DNA from: Candidatus Aminicenantota bacterium
GTDB lineage: Bacteria; Acidobacteriota; Aminicenantia; Aminicenantales; Aminicenantaceae
DNA length: 34,810 bases
Direction of reading: 5' to 3'
NCBI GenBank assembly: GCA_004377005.1
Contig: SOIV01000271.1
Coordinates: forward strand, 1-34,810
Below the pieces are notes generated by a model. It saw nothing but the letters and a program-made list of their open reading frames with translations. It did not search any database and was not told the origin of the DNA. Positions 1,575-33,536 of this stretch are shown here, one piece after another. The stretch's first letter is position 1. Each line of letters begins with the position of its first letter. The translations under genes and the position numbers were made by a program.

Positions 1575-2903
1575 ATGACGACAAGAATTCAAAAAGAAGC
1601 CAGCAAAGAAAGCCTTCTTCTAAACATGGGACCTTCTCATCCAGCCATGCACGGGACCATCCGGATAATGCTCGAGCTTGACGGGGAGCGGATTCTCAAT
1701 TCAGAAGTCGAGGTAGGATACTTGCACAGAGGTTTCGAGAAAATATGCGAGAACAGGACTTATTTCAACCTGCTTCCCTATACGGACAGGATGAATTATG
1801 TCTCTCCTCTAATCAATAACCTTGGTTATGTGATGACAGTAGAGAAGATGCTGGGCATCGAAGCTCCTGAGCGGGCGCAGTACATTCGAGTCATAATGAG
1901 TGAGCTCTCGCGTATCTCTGACCACCTAACATGTCTGGCAGCCATGGCCATGGAGTGCGGGGCTTTTACTGTTTTCCTCTACAATGTGAAAGCTCGTGAA
2001 TATATCTGGGATGTTATCGAAGAGACAACTGGCGCCCGCATGACAACTTCCTATATCCGGATAGGCGGGGTTAGAGCCGATCTTCATCCCGGTTATAAAG
2101 CGGTTCTTAAGAAAGCGATTGTGGAGACAAGGAAAGTTTTAAAGGATATTCGTGGTCTCCTTGATAAGAACATAATTTACCTGAATAGAACAAGAGATAT
2201 AGCAATTGTTTCTCCAGAGACAGCCATTTCCTATGGGTGGACTGGCCCCTGCCTTCGCTCCACAGGCGTTTATTATGATGTCCGCAAAGCTTCCCCTTAT
2301 GCGGTTTATGACCAATTGGATTTTGAGGTTCCTTTGGGCGAGCGAGGGGATAACTTTGACAGATACATGGTTCGGATGAAAGAGATGGATCAGAGCCTCC
2401 GGATCATTGAGCAAGCCATGGAAAAAATGCCAAGACCATCTCCGTCCAAGCTTATGGTTGAGGCCCTCGAGCCAGCCGAGGCGATCAAGGCCTCCAGAAC
2501 AAAAAGAGTTGAGAAAGAAATCAAGCTCTCTCCCAATTTAGAAGGCTCAGAAAGAGGAAAATACCTGGATATTCTCGGCACAGATAAAAAATATGTCGTT
2601 CCTCCCAAAGAGGATACATACACCTCGATCGAAGGGATTATTAATCACTTTAAATTTTTCATGAGGGGTCACGGCATAAGACCTCCCAAAGGGGAAGCTT
2701 ATTTTTCTGTGGAAGGTGGAAACGGTGAGCTTGGCTATTACATTGTTTCAGACGGCACTGACAGGCCGTATCGCCTTCATCTGAGGGCCCCTTGTTTTCA
2801 CATCGTTTCTGCCCTGGAAGAAATGATCAAGGGGCACTATATAGCCGATATTATTCCTACTTTTGGCTCGACGAATATGATAGGAGGAGAGTTAGATAGA
2901 TGA
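1575..2903 (+). CDS. nuoD: NADH-quinone oxidoreductase subunit D
   Basis: NMGPSHPAMHG, VGYLHRGFEK, GELGYYIVSDG, RLHLRAPCF; C-terminus GSTNMIGGELDR. Confidence 0.95.
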   Translation: MTTRIQKEASKESLLLNMGPSHPAMHGTIRIMLELDGERILNSEVEVGYLHRGFEKICENRTYFNLLPYTDRMNYVSPLINNLGYVMTVEKMLGIEAPERAQYIRVIMSELSRISDHLTCLAAMAMECGAFTVFLYNVKAREYIWDVIEETTGARMTTSYIRIGGVRADLHPGYKAVLKKAIVETRKVLKDIRGLLDKNIIYLNRTRDIAIVSPETAISYGWTGPCLRSTGVYYDVRKASPYAVYDQLDFEVPLGERGDNFDRYMVRMKEMDQSLRIIEQAMEKMPRPSPSKLMVEALEPAEAIKASRTKRVEKEIKLSPNLEGSERGKYLDILGTDKKYVVPPKEDTYTSIEGIINHFKFFMRGHGIRPPKGEAYFSVEGGNGELGYYIVSDGTDRPYRLHLRAPCFHIVSALEEMIKGHYIADIIPTFGSTNMIGGELDR

Positions 2904-3373
2904 GCCCAGAGTTCTCAGAGAAGACAAAGAAAAAAATCGAGGAAATTGTTGCCCGCTACCCTCAAAAAGAAGCTGCTATTCTTCCAATTTTGCATATAAC
3001 CCAACAAGAATTCGGCTCTATTTCTGCTGAGGAAGAAAAGCTGGTAGCTCGAATTTTAGGAATAAAACCTATCAGTGTGAGAGAACTCGTGACTTTTTAC
3101 ACCATGTTCCCTAAGGAATCTTTAGGAAAATATCACATTCAGGTCTGTTCTAACCTGAGCTGTTCTCTTCTAGGAGCAGGTAATTTCGTTGATTATTTAG
3201 TAGAGAAATTAGGGATTAAGCCTGGAGAGACAACGCCCGACAAAAAATTCACTCTATCGACAGTTGAGTGTTTAGGTGCCTGTGAGCGGGCTCCCTGTAT
3301 GATGATAAATTTTAATTACTACGGTGAGATGGATCCAAAAAAAGTTGATGAAATTTTGGATGGTTTGAAATAG
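2900..3373 (+). CDS. nuoE: NADH-quinone oxidoreductase subunit E (2Fe-2S)
   Basis: CSNLSC...VECLGACERAPCM ligand pattern; 4-bp overlap with nuoD. Confidence 0.95.
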   Translation: MSPEFSEKTKKKIEEIVARYPQKEAAILPILHITQQEFGSISAEEEKLVARILGIKPISVRELVTFYTMFPKESLGKYHIQVCSNLSCSLLGAGNFVDYLVEKLGIKPGETTPDKKFTLSTVECLGACERAPCMMINFNYYGEMDPKKVDEILDGLK

Positions 3374-3377
3374 GAAA

Positions 3378-4616
3378 ATGAAGGAAAAGGTTTTAACCGA
3401 ACATTTTGGGCTTGAAAATCTGTACAAAATAGATGTGTATCAAAAGCAGGGAGGGTATCGAGCTACGGAGAAAGCGCTAAAGAAAATGAAGCCGGAAGAA
3501 ATTCTGGAAGAAGTGAAAAAGGCTAATTTGAGAGGAAGGGGCGGCGCAGGTTTTCCGGCTGGAGTAAAGTGGAGTTTTGTTCCTGACACGGATAAGCCAA
3601 AATACCTATGCGTCAACGCTGATGAGGGAGAACCGGGAACTTTTAAAGATCGCTACATTATGAGCCATAATCCCCATATGCTGATCGAAGGGATTATCAT
3701 CACCTCTTTCTGTGTGGGTATCTCTGTTGCTTTTATTTATATTCGGGGCGAATATGAAGCCATAGCCTTGAGACTTGAACAGGCCATCTCAGAAGCATAC
3801 GAGAAAGGATTTTTAGGAAAAAACATCCTGGAGAGTGGTTTTGACCTGGATGTTTTTGTGCACCGCGGTGCTGGGGCCTATATCTGCGGTGAGGAAACCG
3901 CGCTCCTGGAATCGCTCGAAGGCAAACGGGGAAATCCCCGGCTGAAGCCTCCTTTCCCAGCTTCTGTTGGTCTTTTTCAATGTCCAACTGTTATAAATAA
4001 TGTTGAAACTATCTCCAACATCTCTCATATCATACTTAATGGTGCGGAATGGTTTATCAAACAAGGGCTTCCAAAAGACGGAGGAACCAGAATTTTTGGC
4101 GTAAGCGGCATGGTCAAGAATCCAGGAATCTACGAGCTGCCCCTCGGAACCAGCCTGAAAGATATCATTTTCAAACATGCCGGAGGAATGAAGGAAGGCA
4201 AAAAATTGAAGGCTGTTATTCCAGGGGGAATGTCAGCACCTATTTTAACAGCAGATGAAATAAACATAAAGATGGATTTTGACTCCCTGGTCGAGGCAAA
4301 TTCTATGCTCGGTTCTGCCGGCATCATCGTCATCGACGACAAGACCTCTATTCTTGATGTCCTAAAGGTAGTCACAAAATTTTATTCCCATGAGTCATGC
4401 GGCCAGTGCACTCCCTGCCGGATCGGAAATTCATGGATAAATAAAATAGTCAAACGCATAGCAGAAGGAAAAGGAAAGAAAGAGGATATCGATAGCATTT
4501 TACGGTTGGCTTCAAATATCGAAGGGAACACTCTTTGCCCTTTAGGAGATGCTGCAGCCATGCCTATTCTTTCCATCACCAAGAAGTTCAGGAAGGAACT
4601 TGAATCTCATTTATAG
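3378..4616 (+). CDS. nuoF: NADH-quinone oxidoreductase subunit F
   Basis: GRGGAGFPAGVKWSF, NADEGEPGTFKDR, GAGAYICGEETALLESLEG, ESCGQCTPCRIG. Confidence 0.97.
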   Translation: MKEKVLTEHFGLENLYKIDVYQKQGGYRATEKALKKMKPEEILEEVKKANLRGRGGAGFPAGVKWSFVPDTDKPKYLCVNADEGEPGTFKDRYIMSHNPHMLIEGIIITSFCVGISVAFIYIRGEYEAIALRLEQAISEAYEKGFLGKNILESGFDLDVFVHRGAGAYICGEETALLESLEGKRGNPRLKPPFPASVGLFQCPTVINNVETISNISHIILNGAEWFIKQGLPKDGGTRIFGVSGMVKNPGIYELPLGTSLKDIIFKHAGGMKEGKKLKAVIPGGMSAPILTADEINIKMDFDSLVEANSMLGSAGIIVIDDKTSILDVLKVVTKFYSHESCGQCTPCRIGNSWINKIVKRIAEGKGKKEDIDSILRLASNIEGNTLCPLGDAAAMPILSITKKFRKELESHL

Positions 4617-4622
4617 GGTTAA

Positions 4623-6203
4623 ATGCAGGAGAAAACGAACGAGATGATAAAGATTTTCATAGATAAAGAGCCCGTAGATGCGGAGGAAGGCACGACTGTG
4701 TTGAAAGCCGCAGAGCGAGCGGGGATTCACATCCCTCATCTATGTTATCATCCTGCTTTTCCGCCAGAGGGAAGCTGCCGTATGTGTCTTGTCGAGATTG
4801 AGGGCTTTCCCAAGCTTGAGCTGGCTTGCTCGACGGTGGTGAAGGAAGAGATGAAAATCTCGACAAAAAGCGAAAGGGTCGTTGAAGCCAGAAAAGCAGT
4901 GTTGGAATTTCTGCTGGCAGAACACCCCCTTGATTGTCCCATCTGCGATAAAGCTGGAGACTGTAAACTCCAGGATTATTACGACGAATACGGACTTTTT
5001 GAAAGCCAGTTTAAAGAGGCGAAAGAAAAAAGAGAGAAAAAATTAAAGATCGGAAAGAGCCTCATTCTTGATCAAGAAAGATGTATTCTCTGCACTCGCT
5101 GCGTCCGGTTTCTAAAAGAAGTGACCAAAACACAGGACCTTGGCGTATTTCACCGCGGAGTCCATTCAAGTGTTAATATTTATGAAGGGGCTTCTGTTGA
5201 AAATAATTATTCAGGCAATTTAGCTGAGATCTGTCCGGTGGGTGCCATCACCGATGAAGATTTCAGGTTTAAGACGCGCAGTTGGTTTTTAAAAGAAGGA
5301 GAGTCCATCTGCCCCCTCTGCAGTCGTGGCTGTAACATTTTGATCGAATATCACCCGGGTTTTTCCCGTTTCGAGCTGCCAAAAAGAGTCTACAGGATTA
5401 AAGCCAGAGAAAACCCTGAGGTCAACGGTTTCTGGATCTGCGATCGCGGTCGATATGGTTATTCATACCTTGATGAGCGTAGAGCTGATCAAATTATCAT
5501 GAATAAGAAAGAAGGGGAGAATGAGCTTACCTGCGAAAATATCTCCAGGCACCTTGGAGAAAAAATAAAAAACTTGTCTTCCGCCAGGAAGACCTCCGGA
5601 ATTGCCCTAATTCTTCATACCTGGCTTTCGAATGAGGAACTATTTCTCCTTCATGAAATCTTTAAAAATGACCTTAAAGTAGAAAAGATATTCTTTGCAG
5701 ACCTCCCTGATGGAGAAGCAGACGGATTTTTACTTACATCAGAACCTAGCCCTAATAGAAGAGGAGCTCAAGAAATAGGTTTTGATATAAAGACTGTGGA
5801 TTTAGGCGCCTTGGCTGACGGAACGGATTTTCTCCTCGCCTTTGGTCCTTTTCTTTCTGGACTTTTCAGTTCGAAAGACCTCAGAGGTGCTCTGGATAAG
5901 ATAAAAACAAAAGTACTTTTCTCCTCCAATTCGAATGAGTTGAATTCTCTTTTCGATGTAGTCATTCCCGTAGCTTTAATTGCTGAAAAGGAGGGTTCCT
6001 TGACGAATGTGGAAGGTATAGTCCAGGGTTTTCAACCTGTTCTAGAACCGCCCGGAGAAAGTCTGCCCGAATGGAAAGTGCTTTCCGACCTGGGTAAGGA
6101 ATTGGGAATGGATTCCAAGTTCTACAGTGAATTCACGTCTCCTGAAGCAATTTTAAGCGAGATGGGAAAGAAAATTCCTTTTTTCAAGAAAAAAAATGAC
6201 TGA
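4623..6203 (+). CDS. nuoG: NADH-quinone oxidoreductase subunit G, short form
   Basis: N-terminal 2Fe-2S (CYHPAFPPEGSCRMCLVEIEG), HPLDCPICDKAGDCKLQD, CILCTRCVRF, CPLCSRGCN; 526 aa. Confidence 0.93.
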   Translation: MQEKTNEMIKIFIDKEPVDAEEGTTVLKAAERAGIHIPHLCYHPAFPPEGSCRMCLVEIEGFPKLELACSTVVKEEMKISTKSERVVEARKAVLEFLLAEHPLDCPICDKAGDCKLQDYYDEYGLFESQFKEAKEKREKKLKIGKSLILDQERCILCTRCVRFLKEVTKTQDLGVFHRGVHSSVNIYEGASVENNYSGNLAEICPVGAITDEDFRFKTRSWFLKEGESICPLCSRGCNILIEYHPGFSRFELPKRVYRIKARENPEVNGFWICDRGRYGYSYLDERRADQIIMNKKEGENELTCENISRHLGEKIKNLSSARKTSGIALILHTWLSNEELFLLHEIFKNDLKVEKIFFADLPDGEADGFLLTSEPSPNRRGAQEIGFDIKTVDLGALADGTDFLLAFGPFLSGLFSSKDLRGALDKIKTKVLFSSNSNELNSLFDVVIPVALIAEKEGSLTNVEGIVQGFQPVLEPPGESLPEWKVLSDLGKELGMDSKFYSEFTSPEAILSEMGKKIPFFKKKND

Positions 6204-7281
6204 AACATTAAATGAAATGTTAATAATATTCATCAAGATTGTCTGTGCTCTGGCCTGGCTCCTTGGACTTACTCTGTTCCTGACCTGGCTGGAGAGAAAA
6301 GAGAGTGCACTTATCCAGGACAGGCTTGGCGCGAACAGAGCTTCAATCTTTGGAATACGTATCATCGGTCTTTTCCAGCCCATTGCCGATGCCATTAAAA
6401 TGATTTTTAAGGAAGATTTTGTGCCTTCCTTCTCCAGGAAATTTCTCCACACGATGGCTCCTTTCATCTCTTTCTTTTTTGTGGCTATCACGATTGCGGC
6501 GATCCCTTTTGGAGATAATCTGCGTATTGGAAACCGGACTATACACCTCCAGATACTGGATTTTAATGTAGGGCTTTTGTTTATCCTGGCTATGTTGTCT
6601 CTGGGAATATACGGTATTATTATCAGCGGTTGGGCTTCTAATAACAAGTATGCTCTCATCGGAGGACTGAGAGGAGCTGCTCAGATTATCTCTTATGAAG
6701 TAGCCCTGGGATTGTCTCTCATAGGCCTGATCATGGTCTATCCATCTTTGAGACTTTCAAGCATTGTCCTCTATCAGGGGGAGCTCCTTTTTGGGTTCCT
6801 TCCAAAATGGGGGATTTTTCTCCAACCCCTGGGATTCGTTATCTTTCTTTTTGCTGCTCTTTCCGAGACAAAAAGAGCTCCCTTTGATCTTCCAGAGGGG
6901 GAATCTGAAATCATAGGATTTTTCACAGAGTACAGTGGGCTTAAATGGGGCCTTTTCATGATGGTTGATTTCATGGAAGTCATCATTGTCTCCACTTTGC
7001 TCACCACTCTTTTCTTTGGAGGCTGGCAGGTTCCTTGGTTGGCTTCGGACGGATTTCACTTCCCGTGGGGAGGAGAATTGTTGCTTTCTCATGTGGTCGT
7101 TGTTCTCTTGCAGGTCGCAGCTTTCAACATAAAAGTTTTCTTTTTCTGCTGGCTTCAGATTTTGATCCGCTGGACCTATCCTCGGTTTCGTTATGACCAG
7201 CTTATGGATTTTGGCTGGAAATTGCTTATTCCTTTAAGCTTGGTTAATATCATCGGAACAGGCATTATAATGACGCTCTAA
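6196..7281 (+). CDS. nuoH: NADH-quinone oxidoreductase subunit H
   Basis: WLERKESALIQDRLGANR, ETKRAPFDLPEGESEIIGFFTEYSGLKWG, multiple TM segments. Confidence 0.95.
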   Translation: MTETLNEMLIIFIKIVCALAWLLGLTLFLTWLERKESALIQDRLGANRASIFGIRIIGLFQPIADAIKMIFKEDFVPSFSRKFLHTMAPFISFFFVAITIAAIPFGDNLRIGNRTIHLQILDFNVGLLFILAMLSLGIYGIIISGWASNNKYALIGGLRGAAQIISYEVALGLSLIGLIMVYPSLRLSSIVLYQGELLFGFLPKWGIFLQPLGFVIFLFAALSETKRAPFDLPEGESEIIGFFTEYSGLKWGLFMMVDFMEVIIVSTLLTTLFFGGWQVPWLASDGFHFPWGGELLLSHVVVVLLQVAAFNIKVFFFCWLQILIRWTYPRFRYDQLMDFGWKLLIPLSLVNIIGTGIIMTL

Positions 7282-20722: not shown

Positions 20723-23380
20723 TTATATATTCCAGCGAAAGGAAATTTTTATTAAGAAAATATTATCTCCTGGAGCTGTAAACAGGTCTCCCATATCACG
20801 TCTGAAATTGAAATCTCCGGGATTTGCCTCGTCCGCGCGATTCTGTGTCCAGACAAAATAGAGTATAGAACCAGGCAAATACTCCCACCTCAGAACAATG
20901 GTGCCTCGGAGGGATTTGAAGTTAAAATCTGGATTCTCAAAAGAAAAAACTGGTGCTGGTCCAGGCCCATCAGGATCAACTGAATATTCTTCATCGGAAT
21001 CGGAATAAGAGATCGTGGATCCGTCTTCGCCAAAGAGATTGTACTCATATTTTTTTGGACTGGCGAGTTCTTTGAATTGGTTATACTTTCCTACTGCCAG
21101 AAGAGGCTGGAGATAGAGCTGCAAGCTCAACCTGGGGGTGAAAGTCCAGTCCAACCTGATGTTGCTTGATAGCATTCTCTGAAAATAGCCGCCAAAAACG
21201 TATCGACTTCCAAATGTTTCAGCCATCAACGGATCATCCACTTTAGTTACCCATTGGATACTCGATTTTCGAACATAATAGCCCGGGCCAAAAGAGAAAC
21301 TGATGTTTGTCCTTGGTTTCCAGCGTAGAGAAACATCGCCGCTCCAGCTGTAGCCATCTGTTGGCCTTGAATAGTAATTTTCGTGCGCTGAAATAACTAT
21401 TGGTTTCCGGCTGTCAGTACTGAAGCCGAGGTTAATCTGATAGCCGGATGGAATGAGGGCTAGAGGCCCTCCTCTTGTTAAAGTGTTGCTGATGGTTTTG
21501 GGATTATAGGCAAACATCGTGTTAAATCGCCAGTAATTTAGAAATTGGCCGTCAGCAGCAACCAGATATCCATCCCAGGTTTTATTACCGCCAAAGTCAT
21601 AGTTTCGGAAAGGTCCGCCGATAATATTCCAGTTGCGGAAGATTTTTCCCGGGTGGGGCCAATAATAGCCGAGAAGAAGATGGGCGTTGATTGTGTCAGA
21701 GGTTCCATGTTGGAATCCGACATCATTCGGGTCAAAACCTGGAGACAGCGCACCAAAAGCCGCATTAAAAAGAAAATTACCCTTTTGCTTGTTTATATAG
21801 AATCTTCCCCCCCAGCCGCTGAGAGAAGTCGCTTCTTCGTTCACCTCAACATGGGTAGCATCCGGCCGCTGGTAATAATGTAGAGAAGATTGTTGTAACT
21901 CCAGAATTGTTGTTTGGCTTCCTTCGACCCGGGTACCCCCAATCCAGCCGCCAGTAACCCAGGTTTTATTCTTATCAAGAAACGTCCAGCCATCAATGGC
22001 CAGAGAGAAAGCATTTTTGTTTAAAATGCCCTCAAGGTTTTCATTACTTAAATCCCGGACAACAGAGGTGGCAATAAAGCCGAGCCCTTGTTTTCCCTCA
22101 TTAAACTCTCTCAGAGTCCTGAGCACTCCATAATAAGAAAAAGGTTCCACTTCTTCTTTAAAGCGTTGTCCGTCAGAATCAATCTCCGCATATTCCCTCG
22201 CCGTCAGGGCATTGATGAATCCTATGTTCCAGCCTTTTCCTACTTTACCTGTGAGTTTAAAGGCACCTAATATTGTCGACCTGTCAGGAAAATTCACATG
22301 GCCGTCCTGTTCGACATCGCCCTGGGGAGCCCTGCCAATCCGGCGGCTGTAGAAGAAAGAAGGCGAGCTCCAGTTTATATTGGCATTGCTGGTCGCTCCC
22401 CCTCGGCCAAACTGGTCAAAGATATTTGAACCTTCGATAAAAAACGGTCTCTTCTCCGAAAAGTATGTTTCATAATCACTCAGGTTGATCACAGCCGGGT
22501 CAACCTCAACCTGCCCGAAATCAGGATTAACGGTTGTATCCAGCATTAAGTTGCTTTTTAATCCGATCTTAAGGTCGAATCCTGTATTTCCTAAATATTT
22601 ATTTCCTGTCTCAAAAGGGTTGCCTGACTCTTCAGGGCTGTATTGAGCCTGGACAACAGAGTAGGGAAGGAACTCAATGAGCCGGCCAGGACGAATATCC
22701 TGGATTCCCAAAAGTTTGGCAAAATGGGAGACATAGCCGCTGTCTTCTTTGGGAACCCAAACAAAGCCGATTCTCTCGTTTTTCCGCTTGATAACTCTGC
22801 GAAAATTCACTCCCCATACATATTCATCTTTCTTCGGAAAACGCAGTTGATTATAAGGGATTCTGATTTCAACAGTCCAACCTTCCTCATCGATCAGAGC
22901 TTTCCATTCCCAGATACCATCCCAGGTCGAATCATTCCATTCATCATTTAAAAGTGTCCAGTCAACGATGGAGCCGGCAGGATTTACAGCAAACTGGTAA
23001 CCGGAGCGCCGGTCATAATAGGGATCTACAGCAAATATAAACCAGTCAGAGTCGACAAAATCATCCCGGCGTCCCAATCGGCTTGTAATCAATTCCGGCT
23101 GCGAATCATACAGGCGAGCAGCCACATAAAGAGATTTTTCGTCATACGCTACCCAGACCTTAGTTTTTTCAGTGGGCTGGGCGCCGTCAGTCGGATCAGA
23201 CTGGATAAAGTCACTGTATCCTTCTTCCTGCCAGGCTGTTTCCTCTAAAACACCATCAATATTAATTGGTCCGTTGGCTCGGATAGCGTGAACAGTCTTT
23301 TGTGCTTGAGGAGTGGGGGGCTGAGCTAATAAAAATAACGGTAATAATAGAATAACTATGATTGCAGACTTTTTCCCCAT
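20723..23380 (-). CDS. DUF5916 protein (N-terminal CBM9-like domain plus C-terminal outer-membrane beta-barrel-like region)
   Basis: Signal peptide, INIDGVLEETAWQ, ATSNANINWSSPSFFYSRRIGRAPQG, YFSEKRPFFIEGSNIF. Confidence 0.87.
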   Translation of the reverse strand: MGKKSAIIVILLLPLFLLAQPPTPQAQKTVHAIRANGPINIDGVLEETAWQEEGYSDFIQSDPTDGAQPTEKTKVWVAYDEKSLYVAARLYDSQPELITSRLGRRDDFVDSDWFIFAVDPYYDRRSGYQFAVNPAGSIVDWTLLNDEWNDSTWDGIWEWKALIDEEGWTVEIRIPYNQLRFPKKDEYVWGVNFRRVIKRKNERIGFVWVPKEDSGYVSHFAKLLGIQDIRPGRLIEFLPYSVVQAQYSPEESGNPFETGNKYLGNTGFDLKIGLKSNLMLDTTVNPDFGQVEVDPAVINLSDYETYFSEKRPFFIEGSNIFDQFGRGGATSNANINWSSPSFFYSRRIGRAPQGDVEQDGHVNFPDRSTILGAFKLTGKVGKGWNIGFINALTAREYAEIDSDGQRFKEEVEPFSYYGVLRTLREFNEGKQGLGFIATSVVRDLSNENLEGILNKNAFSLAIDGWTFLDKNKTWVTGGWIGGTRVEGSQTTILELQQSSLHYYQRPDATHVEVNEEATSLSGWGGRFYINKQKGNFLFNAAFGALSPGFDPNDVGFQHGTSDTINAHLLLGYYWPHPGKIFRNWNIIGGPFRNYDFGGNKTWDGYLVAADGQFLNYWRFNTMFAYNPKTISNTLTRGGPLALIPSGYQINLGFSTDSRKPIVISAHENYYSRPTDGYSWSGDVSLRWKPRTNISFSFGPGYYVRKSSIQWVTKVDDPLMAETFGSRYVFGGYFQRMLSSNIRLDWTFTPRLSLQLYLQPLLAVGKYNQFKELASPKKYEYNLFGEDGSTISYSDSDEEYSVDPDGPGPAPVFSFENPDFNFKSLRGTIVLRWEYLPGSILYFVWTQNRADEANPGDFNFRRDMGDLFTAPGDNIFLIKISFRWNI

Positions 23381-23588: not shown

Positions 23589-25361
23589 TTACTTTAAGGT
23601 CACTGTTTTCGAAAGGTATCCACCTTTGAGGGAATCGTAGATTATTTTTATACTGCCTTTTCCTTTGACCAGCAAGCGGTAGTCGACCTTGCCAAAACCG
23701 GGAACTCCTGATTCAATCCAAATGAAATCTTCGCGAGTTTTGACTTTTCGCGTAATTCCACGGAAACGATCAGTCAACTGGCCTGAGGCAAGAAGTTTGA
23801 CATCCTTCCCCTCAACTTTGATCCGATCCGCGCGATGCAGCTTTTTCTCATGAGCCATAGCAGAGATAGAAGGAGTTACTCTGGTATTTTTGACAGAGAT
23901 ATCTATTTGATAGAGGTTCCTCTCCAGCTTTTTAACTGCTAATTTATCAAAAGCGAGACGAGGCAGTTGGTCAGCATGGAAGAGACAGAAGGCTGCATTA
24001 CGGTGGCAGGTATCAGCCAACTGGAAAAGAGGCGGCACCCTGGTTCCGTAGATTTTAACTCCGCCAATTTCAATATCGCCGTAGAGAGGATGCTTATACG
24101 GTGTCCAATCAGAAAATTGTTCGCCTAAAAGCACCAGGTCATGGTAAGTCATTTCTTCAAGTCTTTCTGCAAGGGAACGCATTCTCCTTAGCTCCTCATC
24201 TTCTTCTTGCTCACCCGTTTCTTGCCCGCCCACAGGAAAGAAAAAATATGGATCCATATCTAACTCGTTGCTGAAGGTGTAAATGCCAAGAACGCTGTAA
24301 AGGAAATCAATGCTTCCGCCATAGACTGTGTACAGATCCTTGTAAACAATTAAATAGTTGTAGCCAGGAATAATTTTTTCACCTTTTTTCCCGATGTAGT
24401 CATAGATTTTTTTATCAGCTATGGGATATTCACCCATATTTTTTGCCCCGGGTCCTCTAAGAATCATACCGCCGGTATTGTGGAAATTTTGTCCCCCCAT
24501 AATGTTTGGATGGGCGAGAAGGAAATCGCGGGTGGCTTTTGTCTCCGGAAAGCAGAAGGGATAGTCGCCTGCGCCACGCTGGACATAATTGGGCTGCCAG
24601 TTAAAAGCGTAATTGCGGTTCATGTCATATCCACCAAGTCCGTCCTCGTTTATGCGGCCATCACCATCGTTGTCGATTCCTTCATCGTCTAAAAGGGTAT
24701 ATTCACCTTTTTCTCCCGGTCTTACAGGAATCATAACTCTGGGATCATCAGGATGGGCTTTGTAACGACCATTCGGGTCTTTTTTTCTCATTTGGGTGAT
24801 GAAACCGTCTCCATCCAGATCTTCAGGTCCGTCTTCATCCGCAACACCGTCGCGGTCACTATCGTATGGAATGAGCCCTGTACGATATGCTTCTGCCTTG
24901 TTGATGAAGTAATCGCGGCTGTCGGGATTCATGGTAAGTATTAAATAGAATGCTTTTTCATCAAGCAGGCGAGTGGCAAGCTCTGTCTTTCCATAATTCT
25001 TCAGCAGATACCAGACTGCATATAAAGCGACCTCTGTTCCCTGAATCTCATTGCCGTGTATGTTGCCGTCAATGTAAAAGCCAGGTTTATGCACTGCTGG
25101 CCCCGTCTTAGGATTATTGAGAATAACAGCCCAAATATCGCGTCCCTGATGCGATTTTCCGAGTGATATAACTTTCATTAACTGCGGATTGGCTTTTTCC
25201 AGAGCCTTAAGGGCTTTTGTGAGTTCTGCATGGTCATAAAAATGGTCAAAAGAAAGCTTAACCTCAGCCGCAGATATCGTTTTTGGAGTAAAGAATGTTA
25301 GACAAAGAACAGTGCCGATAAAGACTAAAAAGATTTTATTTTTACGCATTTTTTCCTCCAT
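23589..25361 (-). CDS. M14-family zinc carboxypeptidase, secreted
   Basis: Signal peptide, NIHGNEIQGTE (HxxE), DMNRNY, GGQNFHNTGG, TFSNELD; Asp-rich DxDGDG inserts. Confidence 0.92.
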   Translation of the reverse strand: MEEKMRKNKIFLVFIGTVLCLTFFTPKTISAAEVKLSFDHFYDHAELTKALKALEKANPQLMKVISLGKSHQGRDIWAVILNNPKTGPAVHKPGFYIDGNIHGNEIQGTEVALYAVWYLLKNYGKTELATRLLDEKAFYLILTMNPDSRDYFINKAEAYRTGLIPYDSDRDGVADEDGPEDLDGDGFITQMRKKDPNGRYKAHPDDPRVMIPVRPGEKGEYTLLDDEGIDNDGDGRINEDGLGGYDMNRNYAFNWQPNYVQRGAGDYPFCFPETKATRDFLLAHPNIMGGQNFHNTGGMILRGPGAKNMGEYPIADKKIYDYIGKKGEKIIPGYNYLIVYKDLYTVYGGSIDFLYSVLGIYTFSNELDMDPYFFFPVGGQETGEQEEDEELRRMRSLAERLEEMTYHDLVLLGEQFSDWTPYKHPLYGDIEIGGVKIYGTRVPPLFQLADTCHRNAAFCLFHADQLPRLAFDKLAVKKLERNLYQIDISVKNTRVTPSISAMAHEKKLHRADRIKVEGKDVKLLASGQLTDRFRGITRKVKTREDFIWIESGVPGFGKVDYRLLVKGKGSIKIIYDSLKGGYLSKTVTLK

Positions 25362-25362
25362 A

Positions 25363-27414
25363 TTATTGAAGGACGACCGTCGTCGTCACAGTGTCAAGCT
25401 TTGGAGTTTTAGCAGATATCGTGATTTTTGAACCTTTTCTACCTCTTATTGTCCATTCCGCCTTTTTTGTATCTCCGCTTCCTCCGATAGAGGGGATGCT
25501 AACTAGCGAGTGCCCGGAAAAGATATACTGCCCTTTGCTTGTTTTGAGCTGAACTCTTATTGGCCAGGAAGTTCTTGCTCGTACTCCCTGGGCGGTTGAA
25601 GTCGGAAACCAGCCAGTATTGGTGAAGTATGCCGTAACCTGATACAGGCCATCTTCAAGAGCTTCGACCTTGGTCTCTTTTATCTCAAGACGGGGAAGAC
25701 GACCCATTAGATCAATATAGAAATCGGTATGGAAGGCGATCGTCTTTTCTATTTCAAATGGGGGAGGTGTCGTTTTCAAAAAAGGGATAAATCCGCCTAT
25801 CTCCACATTGCCTAAGGTCGGGTGTTTGTAAGGCTTCCAGTCAACAAATCCTTTTCCCTTGAGTACCGAATCAGACCACTTAAGAATGTAGGAATCGGGA
25901 TGTTCGCCTTCTTTGACTGCGGGTCTTTGGGGCATTTTTTCCATCATCTGGACCATCCTTTCAGGCGTGACTCGTCCGGATTTTACCATGTTCATTAACA
26001 TCGAGGCGTTGAAATTTGGCGGGGCACCCTGTTCTTTGAGAAAAGCTGCAATCTTTTCCTCGCCAAGTGCCAGGAATTCTTCAGACGACATGGATTTCAG
26101 TTTTTCAACTGTCAAAGCATCCTTAGCTTCAGGTTCTTTCTCAGGCTCTGGTATTCCCCATAGATCTGAAGAAAAGACCTGGACGCCATACTGGTAATAG
26201 CAGTAGGCAATAAAGGACCCTTTGCCTACACCTTTGGCTTTTTTTTCTGGATAGGCGAGCTTTGCTTTTTTCAATCCATCTTTGTAATCTTTCTGAACCG
26301 CTTCTATGTACGGACTATCTTTTTTGTCGATGCTCATGGCAGGTCCCAATCCGAGGAACATGGCTATCATGCTTTCATTGATTTCCATGCCTCCGAAAAT
26401 TGGCATCTCCTTAAGGATGTTTATGAGTTCCTTCATGTCGTATTCTTTATCGGCCTCCAATCCAAGAAAAGAGGCAAAACGCTGGGGAACTTTGACTTTA
26501 GCTCCGGCTACCTTTGCCCGGCCTGTTTGCTGGAGATTGAGAAATGTGTTTTCAGTTGAGAAATTCAAGACCATCGCTATGTTAGGGTGGGAAACGAGAA
26601 ATTTTACAAGAGCAATTGTTTCTTTTTGAGAGACCGGCCAGAGGCCGGCAGCTTTGACATAATACTCAAAGTCATGGGGGAAATTACGGTTTATTTCAGC
26701 CCCTCCGGGAGGATCTTCGTTGTAGTTTCCATCCATATCATTGTCCAGTCCCTCTGTGTAGATTTTATAAATTCCTTTTTCGCCTTTCTTCGGGTCAGCC
26801 TTTCGCATTAAACGAGGTTCCTTTGGATCTGGAATCATTTGCCCTTCTGGATCTTTGACTCTCATTTGAGTGATAAGACCGTCTTTGTTCAGATCGTCAG
26901 GGCCATCCTCATCGATTAATTCATCTAAATCATCATCAACGGGATTATTATTCCTCCGACGCTCAATACGTATTCGAGCAAAGAAGCTATAGGCAGCATC
27001 AGGATTAAGGAGCGGAGCTACATAGACCGTTCTTCTTTCGAGAAGTGATGTAATTTTGCTGTCAGAGCCGTATTTGGTCAAAAGTTTCTGGATGAGCGAG
27101 AGAGCGGCTTCGGTTCCTACTGGGTGAACACCTTCTATGTTTGCCGATACGAACACAGCCGGCCTGGAATCAGGATCAGGACTGCCCTTAGCGGGCGCGG
27201 CAATTCGAAAGACAAACAAATCATTTTTTCCTGAGCTCTTTCCGATGCTTATGACTTTAGTAAGCTGGGGGTACTTTGAACTCCAGGATTTAAGAAAAGA
27301 ATTGACTTCTTTTGGCGTGTGGTAGATGTCAAAAGAAAGTTCTCCTGGTTGAGCAGCAAGAACAAAAGCCATGCTCAAGAAAAGAAAAAGAGAGCAAATC
27401 AGACGATGAGACAT
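25363..27414 (-). CDS. M14-like paralogue with altered active-site motifs, secreted
   Basis: Colinear with the previous protein: NIEGVHPVGTE, EINRNFPHDF, VLNFSTENT, VFSSDLWG; signal peptide. Confidence 0.85.
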   Translation of the reverse strand: MSHRLICSLFLFLSMAFVLAAQPGELSFDIYHTPKEVNSFLKSWSSKYPQLTKVISIGKSSGKNDLFVFRIAAPAKGSPDPDSRPAVFVSANIEGVHPVGTEAALSLIQKLLTKYGSDSKITSLLERRTVYVAPLLNPDAAYSFFARIRIERRRNNNPVDDDLDELIDEDGPDDLNKDGLITQMRVKDPEGQMIPDPKEPRLMRKADPKKGEKGIYKIYTEGLDNDMDGNYNEDPPGGAEINRNFPHDFEYYVKAAGLWPVSQKETIALVKFLVSHPNIAMVLNFSTENTFLNLQQTGRAKVAGAKVKVPQRFASFLGLEADKEYDMKELINILKEMPIFGGMEINESMIAMFLGLGPAMSIDKKDSPYIEAVQKDYKDGLKKAKLAYPEKKAKGVGKGSFIAYCYYQYGVQVFSSDLWGIPEPEKEPEAKDALTVEKLKSMSSEEFLALGEEKIAAFLKEQGAPPNFNASMLMNMVKSGRVTPERMVQMMEKMPQRPAVKEGEHPDSYILKWSDSVLKGKGFVDWKPYKHPTLGNVEIGGFIPFLKTTPPPFEIEKTIAFHTDFYIDLMGRLPRLEIKETKVEALEDGLYQVTAYFTNTGWFPTSTAQGVRARTSWPIRVQLKTSKGQYIFSGHSLVSIPSIGGSGDTKKAEWTIRGRKGSKITISAKTPKLDTVTTTVVLQ

Positions 27415-27642
27415 TCCTACCTCCTTTTTTGGAGTTTATTGGATGAAAAAAACTAGCATATAAATTAATCCTCACGAGAAAAGAAAGAAAAAGCTATCAT
27501 TTAATTCTTCGATAGTAAAGAAAAAAAAGTAAAAAGTCATAAAATTATTTTCTTTTCCAATAATTTTATATAGAATAGAATGTTTTTCCTAAAAAGCATT
27601 TTTTTAACTCAAGGAAATTCTTTAAACGAAAAAGGAGAAGTC

Positions 27643-30600
27643 ATGAAGAAAGCCAGCTTATTTGTCATCCTGGGAATTATTCTCTCTTTTATTTGTTTTT
27701 CTCTGGATACATACGGACAGAGCGCTGATAAAATCGGCAAATTGTATGAGAAAATCAAATGGAGATGCATCGGACCTGCAGTTATGGGAGGCCGCACAGT
27801 GGATATCGATGTCGTAGAAAAAGAGCCTTGGATTATCTACGCAGCCATAGGTCCGAGTGGCGTCTGGAAATCAGTGAATAACGGCATCACATGGGCGCCT
27901 GTTTTTCATAAAGAAAACACAGTCTCTGTGGGTGATATTGCTATCGCTCAATCTCATCCGGACATTATCTGGGTAGGAACAGGAGAAGCAACATGTAGGA
28001 ACAGTGTCACCATAGGGGATGGCGTGTATAAATCCATCGATGGAGGAAAGAAATGGAAGAACATGGGCCTTAAAAATACCCGCCATATTAGCCGAATAGT
28101 AATTAATCCCGGAGATCCGAATATTGTCTATGTGGCTGCTATGGGACATCTATGGGGCCCGAACAAGTGGCGGGGCGTCTATAAAACTATGGACGGCGGA
28201 AAAACATGGAAGAAAATTTTGTATATAAACGAAGATACTGGCGTTGCAGATTTAGCCATCGATCCTTCAGACAGCCTCACTCTTTATGCTGCTACCTACG
28301 AACACCGCCGGCTTCCCTATTATTTTTCAAGCGGTGGTCCAGGGAGCGGGCTTTATAAGACAACAGATGGTGGAGGAACCTGGACGAAGCTTACAGAGGA
28401 TTTACCAGAAGGAGTGATGGGAAGAATAGGAATCGATGTTTCCCGGAGTAATCCTAATGTCGTTTATGCCCTTATCGAACACGAGGATGGTGGAATCTGG
28501 CGTTCAGAAGATAAGGGGAAAAGCTGGAAAAGGACCTGCGACAACGAAACCTATAAGCGGGTAAATTCCAGGCCTTTTTACTACAGCCAGATTCGCATTG
28601 ATCCGGGCGATGATAAGGTCATTTATGTTTTCTCTGGAGGATCCTATGTCTCAAAAGACATGGGCAAGAAATTTAAGCCAATTTCTGGAGGAACCCATCC
28701 TGACCATCATGCTCTCTGGATAGATCCATCCAATCCTCTTCACCTGATCGATGGAAATGACGGCGGTATAGATATCACTTACGATGGTGGGAAAAACTGG
28801 CATCCTATCCAGCACATGGCTCTGGCTGAAGTTTACCAGATTGGGTTTGATATGAGAAAACCATATTATGTCTACTGCGGCTTGCAGGACAACGGCAGTT
28901 GGGGAGGACCGAGTGCCAGCATAGACACTGCGGGGATTACAAACGCTGATTGGTATACGATAGGTGGAGGAGACGGATTTTACGCTCAAGTAGATCCCAC
29001 TGACCCAAATATCATTTACAGAAACTATCAAATGAATGGATTGTCGCGTTTTGATTTGAGGATTAAAATAGGCAAAGCTGTCAGACCCCAAGCTTCTATC
29101 AAAGAACCTCCTTATCGTTTCAACTGGAATTCACCAATTTACATTTCCCCTCATGACCCGAAAACTGTTTATACAGGAGGAAATTATTTATTCAAGACCA
29201 CCAATGGCGGGCATAGTTGGGAAATAATCAGTCCGGACCTTTCAACGAATGACCCAAAGAAGCAAAAAGATTCGGGCGGTTCCATAACCAAGGATAATAC
29301 CGGAGCTGAAATCCATTGTACGATAATCACTATTTCTGAATCACCTGTAGAGAAAGGAGTCATCTGGTGCGGAACTGACGATGGAAATGTCCAGATAACT
29401 CGTGATGGCGGGAAAACATGGAAAAATGTTGTAAAGAAAATTAAAAACCTTCCTCCGAACACGTGGTGCTCTCGTATCGAAGCATCCCATTTTGAGGCAG
29501 GGACAGCCTATGCTGCTTTTGATGGCCATCGCCATGATGATTATGGAACCTATGTTTATAAAACCACGGATTACGGCAACACCTGGAAATCCATCAAGGG
29601 AAACCTGCCTTTTGGTTGGGTACATGTAATTCGGGAGGATTTGAAAAACAAAAACCTTCTTTTTGTAGGGACAGAATTCGGGATTTATGCCTCCCTTGAC
29701 GGTGGCCTAAGCTGGTTTTCGCTCAAGAATAATTTGCCGACCGCGTCTGTGCGGGACATTGCTATACATCCTCGAGAGAATGATCTGATTATCGGAACGC
29801 ATGGGATGGGAGTTTGGATCATGGATGACATTGCTCTTCTCCAGGAGATGACAGAAGAAGTATTTAATTCTGGCTCTTACTTGTTTAATATCCGGCCTTC
29901 AACTCAATTTCTGCGGTCAACCACTCGCGAATATTTCAGCAAGCAGATTTATGCTGCTAAAAACCCTTCTTTCGGTATGACCATAACCTCTTACTTTAGA
30001 ACGAAGCCCGAAGAGAGGCCTGAAGTTTTTATAAAAGACAGTAAAGGCGATACAATATTCAAACTCAAGCTTTTAAAAAGAGAAGGTATTCAGAAAAATA
30101 CGTGGAACTTGCGGTATGTTCCTAAGACAAAGGAAGGAAAAGAGATTAAGTCCTCAGGTATAGGGTTTATCGAATCGCCTTTTGTTGCGTCCGGAGAATA
30201 TACGGTTGAATTGGTAGTCGGAGACCAGAAACTGATGAAAAAAGGAATTGTTTACCCCGATCCAAGGTTTCAAATGAAAGAGGAAGAAAGAATTGTCCAG
30301 AGCGATAAAATCGTTGAAGTCATGGCTCATTCAAAGAAAATGGGCTTATCTGTCACAGCTACAAATAATATAAGGCGGCAGCTTGAGAAGTTGGATAAAG
30401 CGCTGAAGGAAAAAGAAGACACTCCAGAAATTGTTCGAACTGCCCTCAAAAATTTTGATGAGAAATTTGCCAAGTTAGAAGAAGAAATCATGCCCAAGGG
30501 ATTCGGATACAGAGGCTCCATGGAAATGGCTCTCAGGGGAGGTTCTCTTTCCCAACTGGTTATGATGTTAGGCGCGTCCATCTCAGGGTATCCGTCAGTC

Positions 30601-30765
30601 CCGACAAAGACAGAGTTATCCCAGCTTAAGGAATTATCAGAAGCTGTGAATGCACTTGTCAGTAAGTTTAATGAATTTATGAGTGTGGAAATCCCTAAGT
30701 TGAATGAGATTCTGGAAGAGCACAGCCTCAAACCCCTTAAAGCCCCAAAAAAAGTTAGCCTATAA
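27643..30765 (+). CDS. BNR/VPS10 (sortilin-like) repeat secreted protein
   Basis: Repeated S/TxDxGxxW motifs (SIDGGKKW, TMDGGKTW, TTDGGGTW, SEDKGKSW); ATG at 27643 after aaaggag, then signal peptide (ORF opens at 27580). Confidence 0.88.
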   Translation: MKKASLFVILGIILSFICFSLDTYGQSADKIGKLYEKIKWRCIGPAVMGGRTVDIDVVEKEPWIIYAAIGPSGVWKSVNNGITWAPVFHKENTVSVGDIAIAQSHPDIIWVGTGEATCRNSVTIGDGVYKSIDGGKKWKNMGLKNTRHISRIVINPGDPNIVYVAAMGHLWGPNKWRGVYKTMDGGKTWKKILYINEDTGVADLAIDPSDSLTLYAATYEHRRLPYYFSSGGPGSGLYKTTDGGGTWTKLTEDLPEGVMGRIGIDVSRSNPNVVYALIEHEDGGIWRSEDKGKSWKRTCDNETYKRVNSRPFYYSQIRIDPGDDKVIYVFSGGSYVSKDMGKKFKPISGGTHPDHHALWIDPSNPLHLIDGNDGGIDITYDGGKNWHPIQHMALAEVYQIGFDMRKPYYVYCGLQDNGSWGGPSASIDTAGITNADWYTIGGGDGFYAQVDPTDPNIIYRNYQMNGLSRFDLRIKIGKAVRPQASIKEPPYRFNWNSPIYISPHDPKTVYTGGNYLFKTTNGGHSWEIISPDLSTNDPKKQKDSGGSITKDNTGAEIHCTIITISESPVEKGVIWCGTDDGNVQITRDGGKTWKNVVKKIKNLPPNTWCSRIEASHFEAGTAYAAFDGHRHDDYGTYVYKTTDYGNTWKSIKGNLPFGWVHVIREDLKNKNLLFVGTEFGIYASLDGGLSWFSLKNNLPTASVRDIAIHPRENDLIIGTHGMGVWIMDDIALLQEMTEEVFNSGSYLFNIRPSTQFLRSTTREYFSKQIYAAKNPSFGMTITSYFRTKPEERPEVFIKDSKGDTIFKLKLLKREGIQKNTWNLRYVPKTKEGKEIKSSGIGFIESPFVASGEYTVELVVGDQKLMKKGIVYPDPRFQMKEEERIVQSDKIVEVMAHSKKMGLSVTATNNIRRQLEKLDKALKEKEDTPEIVRTALKNFDEKFAKLEEEIMPKGFGYRGSMEMALRGGSLSQLVMMLGASISGYPSVPTKTELSQLKELSEAVNALVSKFNEFMSVEIPKLNEILEEHSLKPLKAPKKVSL

Positions 30766-32265
30766 TTTTATTTCAGGGAGGGAACTTATACCGCACGCTT
30801 TGGCATCGGAATCCATAATTTTTCGAAGCTCTTGAAGGATATCGTCATCCAAAAGAGAGGGGGGATTTTCTTTAAGAAGTCTTTCTACTTCTTCTGAAGC
30901 CCTGTCAGCAATTGATTTTTTTCCAAGCGAAACCCAATAGTCGTAGGTATCACGGTCTATTATTGCAGGAAAGGTATGTTCCTCCCTGTACCATTTTCGG
31001 GTGTGGGGCATGGTTAAAAACTGGGTTTCCTGGGTAAAGCCCTCGAATAGATTTTTAGCAATAGGCTCGTCCCGTTGAGAAATCCCTTCTATCGCTCTGC
31101 AGGCCATGCTGCAGATCTCATTATCCACTACTAGCTTTTCCAGACTCTGGCAGCTTTCAAAGTTCATCATCCCCGGACCTGAGATAACGTTAACACCGGA
31201 GAGCGCTGCCATGACAGCTCCAATTCCAGTTTCCAATCCTGCCTGAGAGTCATTGATTTTCGAATCACTCAATCCCATGTAAGCATGGGTAGGAAGGTTT
31301 AGATATTTTCCAATCTGGGTATAGGCAGAATCAATCATCATTGTCTCTATGGCTCCCATCGGAGTTGTTCCTTTTCTCATATCAAAACTGGATGGGGAGC
31401 CTCCAAAAATAACAGGAGCTCCTTTTTTTGCAAGTTGCGTGATAACTAACCCTGAGAGATTCTCTGCTACATGCTGGACAAGAGTTCCGGCAATGGTCAC
31501 TGGAGATGTTGCTCCAGTCATCCCCATAGAAATAAGCTCTGAAGGAATTCCTGCCCGGGCACAATCAATAAGGCTCTGGGTGGTTAGATTGCTCCATTTC
31601 AGAGGAGGGGAGGGGCATGCATCAAAAATAGCCAGGGGTTTTTCGGCCAGGTTTTTTTCTCCGCCTCTTACCGCAGCAAGCATATCATGCATTGGCTTGA
31701 ACCCTTCAACCCGGAATGTTCCGGTAACAACAGGTTTTGCCGAGAATTGAAGCCCTATATATAAGCGGTAGCTATCAGAGATTAGATCCGGAACATCGGA
31801 GCTTACAATTCCAGTGCTCTGAAAGTCAAAGTGCTCTAGACAATCCGTGAGGCGACAGAACTTAACCAGGTCTTCGCTTACAGCCTTCCTTTCCACTGAT
31901 GTTTTATGGTCGAGGATCGTGATTGCAGTTGATCCCGGGTCAAAATGGACATGATCCTTTCCCACTATGAATTCTTTTTCTCCTGTTCGGTCATATAATC
32001 TGATTATTGAAGGCGAGGAGGAAAGGGAATCCTCTGCAAGCTGTTGGGTGATGTAGACCCTTTGGGCTTGCTCATCAACTCTCATTCCGGCTTCCTTAAA
32101 AAGCTTTAAGGCTTCTTCGTTTTCGACAAACACTCCTTGTTTCTCGAGGATTTCGTGGGCTTCCTCAATTATTTTTTGGATAAATTCTTTACTTAAAAAT
32201 TCCAATTTAGGTCTTATTGTTTTAATCATGCATCTTTCCTTTAAATTCCATTTTTTTTCTATCAA
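30760..32265 (-). CDS. MttB-superfamily (trimethylamine methyltransferase-like) protein, no in-frame stop (non-pyrrolysine)
   Basis: EEAHEILEKQGVFVENEEAL, HFDPGSTA, GGSPSSFDMRKGTTPMGAIETMMIDSA, GLSDSKINDSQAGLETG, SGPGMMNFE. TTG at 32265 overlaps the upstream stop; ATG at 32229 is an alternative start. Confidence 0.9.
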   Translation of the reverse strand: MIEKKWNLKERCMIKTIRPKLEFLSKEFIQKIIEEAHEILEKQGVFVENEEALKLFKEAGMRVDEQAQRVYITQQLAEDSLSSSPSIIRLYDRTGEKEFIVGKDHVHFDPGSTAITILDHKTSVERKAVSEDLVKFCRLTDCLEHFDFQSTGIVSSDVPDLISDSYRLYIGLQFSAKPVVTGTFRVEGFKPMHDMLAAVRGGEKNLAEKPLAIFDACPSPPLKWSNLTTQSLIDCARAGIPSELISMGMTGATSPVTIAGTLVQHVAENLSGLVITQLAKKGAPVIFGGSPSSFDMRKGTTPMGAIETMMIDSAYTQIGKYLNLPTHAYMGLSDSKINDSQAGLETGIGAVMAALSGVNVISGPGMMNFESCQSLEKLVVDNEICSMACRAIEGISQRDEPIAKNLFEGFTQETQFLTMPHTRKWYREEHTFPAIIDRDTYDYWVSLGKKSIADRASEEVERLLKENPPSLLDDDILQELRKIMDSDAKACGISSLPEIKL

Positions 32266-32876
32266 GAAACCTTAGGACTATGCCTTCTCGTTGAAAGTTT
32301 TTGTTCTTTGTAAAAATTTATTCGAAAGGAAACGGACTTTCGAGGTACCATCATACAGGACTCTGTTAGGCGGACTCCGATGTCGGCTGCTGGCAGCATC
32401 CGGAAGATAAATCGCTGTTCCTTTATATCCCATTTTCCGTAGCCTGGGCTAAATCTTTTGCTCGGCCATAAATTCATCTCTCTTGCTTTCTCTGCCAGTA
32501 TTCGATCGGATTGGATAGCCACCTCTTCAGCCGCTTCAGAACCTAAGGCGTCCAGGATTAAAGCTCTCGTCATTTCATTTTTTTCCATAAGTTTTTTGAT
32601 TTCTCGTTCGAGTTCGGGTCCTATAGTACAGATACAAATTGCAACTTTCTCAGCGTCCTTAAAAATAAGATGCTTGTTCGTTTCATCATAACCGACGATC
32701 GTGTAGATGGATGCAGGATGGAGGAGATAATCTAGCTTCTCTTTTTCTTCTGTAATAAGACTTTTTATCGGTTCTTTTATTTCTGTGGGTCTTTTTTTGT
32801 ATCCTATAAGTCTTAAGATCCTTTTCTCATCGAATTCGACTGTGAAATTTTCGATTTTTTCTACAGGTCCAAACAT
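32262..32876 (-). CDS. Stand-alone vitamin-B12-dependent methionine synthase activation-domain-like protein
   Basis: RFSPGYGKWDIKEQRFIFRMLPAADIGVRLTESCMMVPRKSVSFRIN typical of Met_synt_B12. Confidence 0.87.
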   Translation of the reverse strand: MFGPVEKIENFTVEFDEKRILRLIGYKKRPTEIKEPIKSLITEEKEKLDYLLHPASIYTIVGYDETNKHLIFKDAEKVAICICTIGPELEREIKKLMEKNEMTRALILDALGSEAAEEVAIQSDRILAEKAREMNLWPSKRFSPGYGKWDIKEQRFIFRMLPAADIGVRLTESCMMVPRKSVSFRINFYKEQKLSTRRHSPKVS

Positions 32877-32885
32877 GGCCAGCTT

Positions 32886-33536
32886 TTATTCTCCAATCAG
32901 TTTTTTGGTAATTCTTACGGCAACCATGGCATTTTCTCCGTATCCATTGGCTCCTATATCATCAGCCCATTGTTGATTTACCGGAGCACCTCCCACTAAA
33001 ACTTTATACCGGCCAGCGAGATTTTTCTCCTTGAGCATTTCTATGACTTTTTTCTGTCCGAGCATGGTTGTTGTTAAAAGAGCAGAAAGGCAGATGAAAT
33101 CAGCATTTTCTGCCTCTGCTTTTTCAATGAATTTTTCAAGTTTCACATCTGCTCCGAGGTCAATTACCTGAAAACCATTGGCTGCAAGCATCGAAGCTAC
33201 AAGGTTTTTGCCTATATCATGAATATCCCCCTCAACTGTGCCTATAACGACTTTTCCTTTGGATTTTGCCGAAATCTGGGCTTTTTCGAGTTCAGGCTGG
33301 AGCACTCTCATAGCTCCTTTCATACATTCAGCACTGGTTATAAGCTCTGGCAGAAAATATTCTCCTTTTTCCCACAATTCCCCAACTTTTTCGATTCCTG
33401 GCACATAGCCTTTATCTATGACTTCGTTGAGATCCAGTCTCTGTTTAATGGCCTCATTAGCCAGAGCCTCGGTTTCGTCTTTATTCCCTTCGACTATAGC
33501 CTTTCCCATTCTTTTGAGTATCTCTTCTTTGTTCAT
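32886..33536 (-). CDS. Corrinoid-binding protein (MtbC/MttC-like)
   Basis: GTVEGDIHDIGKNLVASMLAANGFQVIDLGADV (DxHxxG), LLTTTM, VGGAPVNQQWADDIGANGYGENA. Confidence 0.95.
   Translation of the reverse strand: MNKEEILKRMGKAIVEGNKDETEALANEAIKQRLDLNEVIDKGYVPGIEKVGELWEKGEYFLPELITSAECMKGAMRVLQPELEKAQISAKSKGKVVIGTVEGDIHDIGKNLVASMLAANGFQVIDLGADVKLEKFIEKAEAENADFICLSALLTTTMLGQKKVIEMLKEKNLAGRYKVLVGGAPVNQQWADDIGANGYGENAMVAVRITKKLIGE

Follow-up and report, generated by a model that had tools for sequence, protein, structure and literature searches.

The window, here the whole 34,810-nucleotide stretch of contig SOIV01000271.1 from a Candidatus Aminicenantota bacterium, carries two neighbouring genes of the M14 metallocarboxypeptidase family. 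The downstream gene encodes an enzyme with the intact zinc motif HxxE. The upstream gene, termed pseudo-M14, reads ExxH at the same place. This raises the question whether the zinc ligands were exchanged within a functional metal site, whether the gene is decaying or whether its product serves the active enzyme next door.

Results

Pseudo-M14 has the M14 fold and a replaced active site

The family assignment was first tested with Pfam, which found M14 in pseudo-M14 and in the active neighbour. For pseudo-M14 the Peptidase_M14 profile (PF00246) scored 91.5 bits against a curated cut-off of 21.6, and the match covered only the profile positions 2-121 of 286, the N-terminal half of the domain. 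NCBIfam had no model or name for either protein. Structure prediction placed both proteins in the M14/carboxypeptidase fold. The AF2 model of pseudo-M14 reached a mean pLDDT of 90.7, which predicts the M14 fold with confidence, and its best PDB matches were all carboxypeptidases (carboxypeptidases A; E 2e-15, TM by target at most 0.67). The model of the active enzyme likewise predicted a carboxypeptidase fold, with a better superposition than that of pseudo-M14. Annotation at the Pfam level labels both genes as zinc carboxypeptidases and is to be taken with caution. The features of the two genes are collected in Table 1.

Table 1. Features of the pseudo-M14 gene and of its active partner (window positions)
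Feature	Position	Strand	Basis or remark
Pseudo-M14 gene, 683 aa	25363..27414	minus	ORF; degenerate M14 domain with inserts, a signal peptide and a C-terminal beta domain
Probable Sec signal peptide, residues 1-21, ...FVLAA/Q	27352..27414	minus	read from sequence
E94-G95-V96-H97, aligned to the zinc motif (HxxE)	27124..27135	minus	codons GAA GGT GTT CAC
Asp-rich insert, DDDLDELIDEDG...DNDMDG	26713..26937	minus	sequence; common to pseudo-M14 and the active partner
N242-R243-N244 (NRN), equivalent to CPA Asn144-Arg145, substrate carboxylate binding	26683..26691	minus	sequence
H247, specific to the pseudo family	26674..26676	minus	clade A 27/27, B 61/62, C 22/25, D 4/4
S286, aligned to the third zinc ligand (His196)	26557..26559	minus	ungapped alignment, NFSTENT 26545-26565
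D417, aligned to the general base (Glu270)	26164..26166	minus	FSSDL 26161-26175 aligned to FSNEL
Helical insert	25912..26127	minus	not in the active enzyme; at least one sequence of clade A (L037) lacks it as well
Active M14 metallocarboxypeptidase, directly downstream of pseudo-M14	23589..25361	minus	ORF, Pfam, structure prediction
H102-G-N-E105, intact zinc motif of the active M14	25047..25058	minus	codons CAC GGC AAT GAG
NFHNT, third zinc ligand of the active M14	24474..24488	minus	sequence
FSNELD, general-base Glu of the active M14	24258..24275	minus	sequence

The first-pass annotation had claimed that ExxH faces HxxE without gaps, and the codons for EGVH and HGNE confirmed this. A slip of the alignment at EGVH was considered and rejected; the motif is ungapped and a predicted helix begins right after it in both proteins. 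The third His had been assigned to the NFSTENT segment, which was found again: the ungapped alignment puts the His of NFHNT over S286, whereas a gapped variant leads to E288. The predicted strand ends favour S286. Neither S286 nor E288 is a conserved metal ligand across the clades described below. The proposed replacement of the catalytic Glu by Asp also held, and the NRN motif and the Asp-rich insert are kept as described. The insert is near-invariant across the pseudo family and, from its sequence, probably binds calcium. H247 characterises the entire pseudo family, and the active enzyme of the window lacks it. Thus pseudo-M14 lacks the HxxE motif, the third His and the general-base Glu of an active M14 enzyme, and it retains the Asn144-Arg145 anchor.

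Pseudo-M14 is conserved and under purifying selection

The conservation was analysed in 136 loci, which gave 103 distinct pseudo proteins and 109 active M14 proteins; the genomes sampled were mostly MAGs. An HxxE-type motif was present in none of the 103 pseudo proteins, and H[G/A/S]xE was intact in all 109 active partners. When a tree was built leaving out the motif columns, the HxxE proteins and the pseudo proteins were still separated by a branch with an SH-aLRT support of 88. The closest named relatives of pseudo-M14 are from Candidatus Aminicenantes MAGs. More distant ones occur in other Acidobacteriota, in Bacteroidota (Maribellus, Draconibacterium, Prolixibacteraceae), in Fodinibius and in Chlorobiota, Calditrichota, KSB1 and Zixibacteria.

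Within the pseudo family, clade A contains the protein of the window (19 non-redundant rows, support 100). It has H at position 97 wherever a row covers the site, and E, rarely D, at position 94, with one Q in the wider set. Some of the rows called clade A were not placed by the tree and were labelled by H97 itself; the conservation of H97 in this clade therefore rests on the motif-free tree and on the score gap. Chance is a poor explanation for a His that persists in every orthologue of a clade with 58% mean pairwise identity, in a gene under purifying selection. In clade C, the second deep branch, E/D...H is found in 19 of 25 sequences, and the small clade D reads [VAE]..H. Clade B (62 sequences from Acidobacteriota including Aminicenantes, Bacteroidota and others) mostly keeps E or D at 94 and has V, T, N, I, L, Y, A or S at 97 instead of H. 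When the active enzymes serve as outgroup, the most parsimonious ancestor of the pseudo family has ExxH, because H97 recurs in deep sister clades. It is likely that the pseudo family started from ExxH and that H97 was lost in B.

A decaying duplicate without function would account for the missing catalytic residues. Several results contradict it. Between the gene of the window and a 94%-identical orthologue the dN/dS ratio was 0.17, close to the 0.15 of the active gene in the same two genomes, and pseudo-M14 is under purifying selection. The frames are open in nearly all genomes, clade A has 98 invariant columns in 27 sequences with a mean pairwise identity of 58%, and the family is found in several phyla. 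Decay was rejected by the dN/dS and the conservation, and we regard its probability as negligible. As an M14 homologue without catalytic residues that is under selection, pseudo-M14 is a probable M14 pseudopeptidase.

ExxH is probably not an exchanged zinc site

The alternative that E94 and H97 bind zinc or another metal in exchanged order, together with another third ligand, would give pseudo-M14 a metal-dependent activity or a structural metal. It draws on the two residues, which are both conserved throughout clade A and in most of clade C, and on E288, which is invariant in clade A and could be the third ligand there. In addition, a variant M14 metal motif that still binds metal exists in Csd4, which reads QxxE...H (PMC4220969). 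The place of the third ligand is, however, S or G in nearly all pseudo sequences, most of the family has D, N or P instead of the general base, and E288 is missing from clade C, which likewise reads ExxH.

E94 and H97 should vanish together if they were joint ligands. In clade B H97 is gone and the acidic residue at 94 stays, whereas in clade D H97 stays with V or A at 94 (3/4 sequences). Six phylogenetically independent changes of H97 had no matched change at 94, a number too small for a strong test. No Asp, Glu or Cys was found to track H97 across the clades except D160, which lies in the Asp-rich insert and is N in clade B. The only His that does so is H562, which is distant in sequence and located in a C-terminal helix.

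The swapped zinc site was thus rejected as the favoured reading, D160 and H562 being the only candidate ligands among the tracking residues, and we consider it very unlikely. The first-pass suggestion of an altered metal chemistry finds no support, the third ligand and the general base having been lost throughout the clades. Along with ExxH, clades A and C retain the polar residues Y115, D160, N242, R243, N278, Q408, H562 and T605, which are lost in B; this set resembles a binding pocket more than a metal site. ExxH is probably the fixed form of a degenerate pocket and not an exchanged zinc site.

A related reading of the conserved residues is that the ExxH pocket and the Asn-Arg pair of clades A and C form a new ligand site without zinc that switches or guides the active M14. 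The ligand may be a peptide C-terminus, a loop of the partner or another metal. We consider this specific proposal rather unlikely. If it is true, the pair would be a regulated two-subunit M14 carboxypeptidase, a kind that was not found in the open-licence literature searched.

The pseudo gene is paired with an active M14 gene

In the window, 1 nt separates the stop codon of pseudo-M14 from the first ATG of the active M14 ORF. The real start is suggested to be the ATG at 25349, 13 nt past the pseudo stop, because GGAGG sits just before it. We then asked how regularly the two genes occur together. A same-strand active M14 gene adjoined the pseudo gene in 96 of 103 loci, and the other 7 pseudo genes lie less than 370 bases from the end of the locus or contig. 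Where the contig allowed a check, the pseudo gene was directly upstream of an M14 gene with intact HxxE in 96/96 cases. Conversely, active matches at E<=1e-110 in 60 related genomes adjoin a pseudo gene, save at contig ends.

Among 396 genomes of the phylum, a pseudo match was found in 58, an active match in 54 and both in 53. The non-shared cases comprise a pseudo fragment at a contig end beside the active gene (G076), a shorter active frame (G080), and contig ends that cut the active gene (G148) or the pseudo gene (G137). Two further genomes (G081, G138) were rejected as exceptions; they carry a different, single M14 with intact HxxE. Contig ends aside, the active subfamily was not found without the pseudo gene in the 60 related and the 396 phylum genomes.

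The distance matrices of the pseudo and active proteins correlated with r=0.92 (permuted maximum 0.13). This shows co-inheritance, not contact, because linked genes are inherited together vertically either way and the mirror-tree correlation is uninformative on contact. The two paralogous genes lie side by side, as in systems of the heterodimer type.

Some loci depart from the simple pair. At L102 (7905-9641 and 9608-11335) two consecutive active M14 genes, not one, come after the pseudo-M14 gene. At L173 (1969-3957) one TAG breaks the pseudo-M14 frame in an otherwise intact pair, which may reflect a sequencing error, decay or read-through. L146, L151 and L152 carry tandem M14 pairs in which the upstream member also has HxxE, the third His and Glu (THGNE.../...HTS/TTELW), and both genes of each pair have Asp-rich stretches. 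These are possibly extant relatives of the state that preceded inactivation. Such tandem pairs with the zinc motif in both members, found in related genomes, suggest that the two genes may have been paired before the pseudo family became inactive.

Proposed role of pseudo-M14

Pseudo-M14 is probably a partner and not a decaying gene because both genes stay together across several phyla. The analysis is best explained by a role in binding or as a partner. The reading that we favour, and hold to be reasonably probable, is that pseudo-M14 is a conserved, exported, non-catalytic partner subunit of the active M14, obligate and probably heterodimeric. It would have arisen when an M14 enzyme was duplicated, earlier than the spread of the pair over several phyla. 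With its three zinc ligands and the general base replaced, it would not hydrolyse peptides; a weak or different activity is possible. It would bind the active enzyme and could complete or cap the substrate cleft, stabilise the enzyme or present the substrate. In clades A and C the Asn-Arg pair with E94 and H97 may serve to hold the C-terminus of a peptide or a partner loop.

Pseudo-M14 might instead bind peptides or cell-wall fragments on its own and share the operon through one substrate, with no complex formed. This is unlikely, though it has some weight. The genes adjoin on one strand with almost no gap, and the Asn-Arg pair, the anchor of the substrate carboxylate, is retained in clades A and C. 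The strict linkage of the two genes could reflect a shared substrate. Against independent binding stand the strict adjacency and gene order, with neither partner seen alone, and clade B, which is still paired although it has lost the Asn-Arg pair and H97. The first-pass annotation was borne out in part: its pseudo-carboxypeptidase, conserved and encoded in one operon with the active enzyme, is well supported by sequence conservation, by selection and by the adjacency in many genomes. Its other part, an altered metal chemistry, was not supported, with the ligands lost and 94 and 97 varying independently.

Comparison with known systems

The M14 carboxypeptidases of PF00246 (A/B/T and M/D type) and pseudo-M14 have in common the fold, the N-terminal half, the NRN motif and a probable export, whereas pseudo-M14 is without HxxE...H and the general-base Glu and has the Asp-rich and helical inserts. 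The known M14 pseudopeptidases are AEBP1, CPXM1, CPXM2, CPD domain III and Ecm14 (PMC11266112, PMC7706225). They also have the M14 fold and have lost active-site residues, but they are eukaryotic, and none of them is encoded by a gene of its own that pairs with one for an active M14. H69 is present in all of them and E72 in all but CPD-III (A72), and none reads E69/H72 (PMC11266112, Table 2). A recent review on inactive metallopeptidases names only eukaryotic M14 pseudopeptidases, four from vertebrates and one characterised in yeast (PMC11266112). Within M14 the nearest functional analogue is CPD, where the inactive domain III is joined to two active M14 domains in one chain (PMC11266112). Csd4 is, like pseudo-M14, a bacterial M14 protein with an altered metal motif, but it has retained the E and the third H and is an active, metal-binding enzyme (PMC4220969).

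Outside M14, two-subunit M16B peptidases consist of two homologous chains with the motif in one of them: MPP alpha/beta, TTHA1264/TTHA1265 and SPH2681/SPH2682 (PMC12731061). As in the M14 pair, the subunits are encoded by separate genes, which are neighbours in the Thermus case (PMC12731061). Family and fold are different, and the heterodimers are proven there, whereas that of the M14 pair is putative. In Helicobacter pylori, the M23B proteins Csd1 and Csd2 form a heterodimer of an active zinc peptidase and a metal-free degenerate homologue (PMC5053510). Unlike the M14 pair, they have the LytM fold and dimerise via helical domains that are not seen here. In the open-licence literature searched nothing specific was found on Aminicenantes M14 or on bacterial active/pseudo M14 pairs. 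Pseudo-M14 represents a widespread bacterial family, each member with an active partner next door, that includes the cultured genera Maribellus and Fodinibius. The pair offers a simple system for what an inactive M14 subunit does for an active one.

Other genes of the window

The M14 pair is flanked downstream by a gene for a DUF5916 protein (20723-23380, minus strand) and upstream by a divergent gene for a Sortilin/Vps10-BNR repeat protein (27580-30765, plus strand). In three other loci (L058, L066, L068) an ORF of like length and divergent orientation is found at the latter place. An MTTB-family methyltransferase gene without an in-frame stop extends over 30760-33536 on the minus strand, with a gene for a B12-binding corrinoid protein nearby; the two are likely to form a methyltransferase system of the methylamine or betaine type. 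A respiratory complex I (nuo) gene cluster is located at 1575-7281 on the plus strand.
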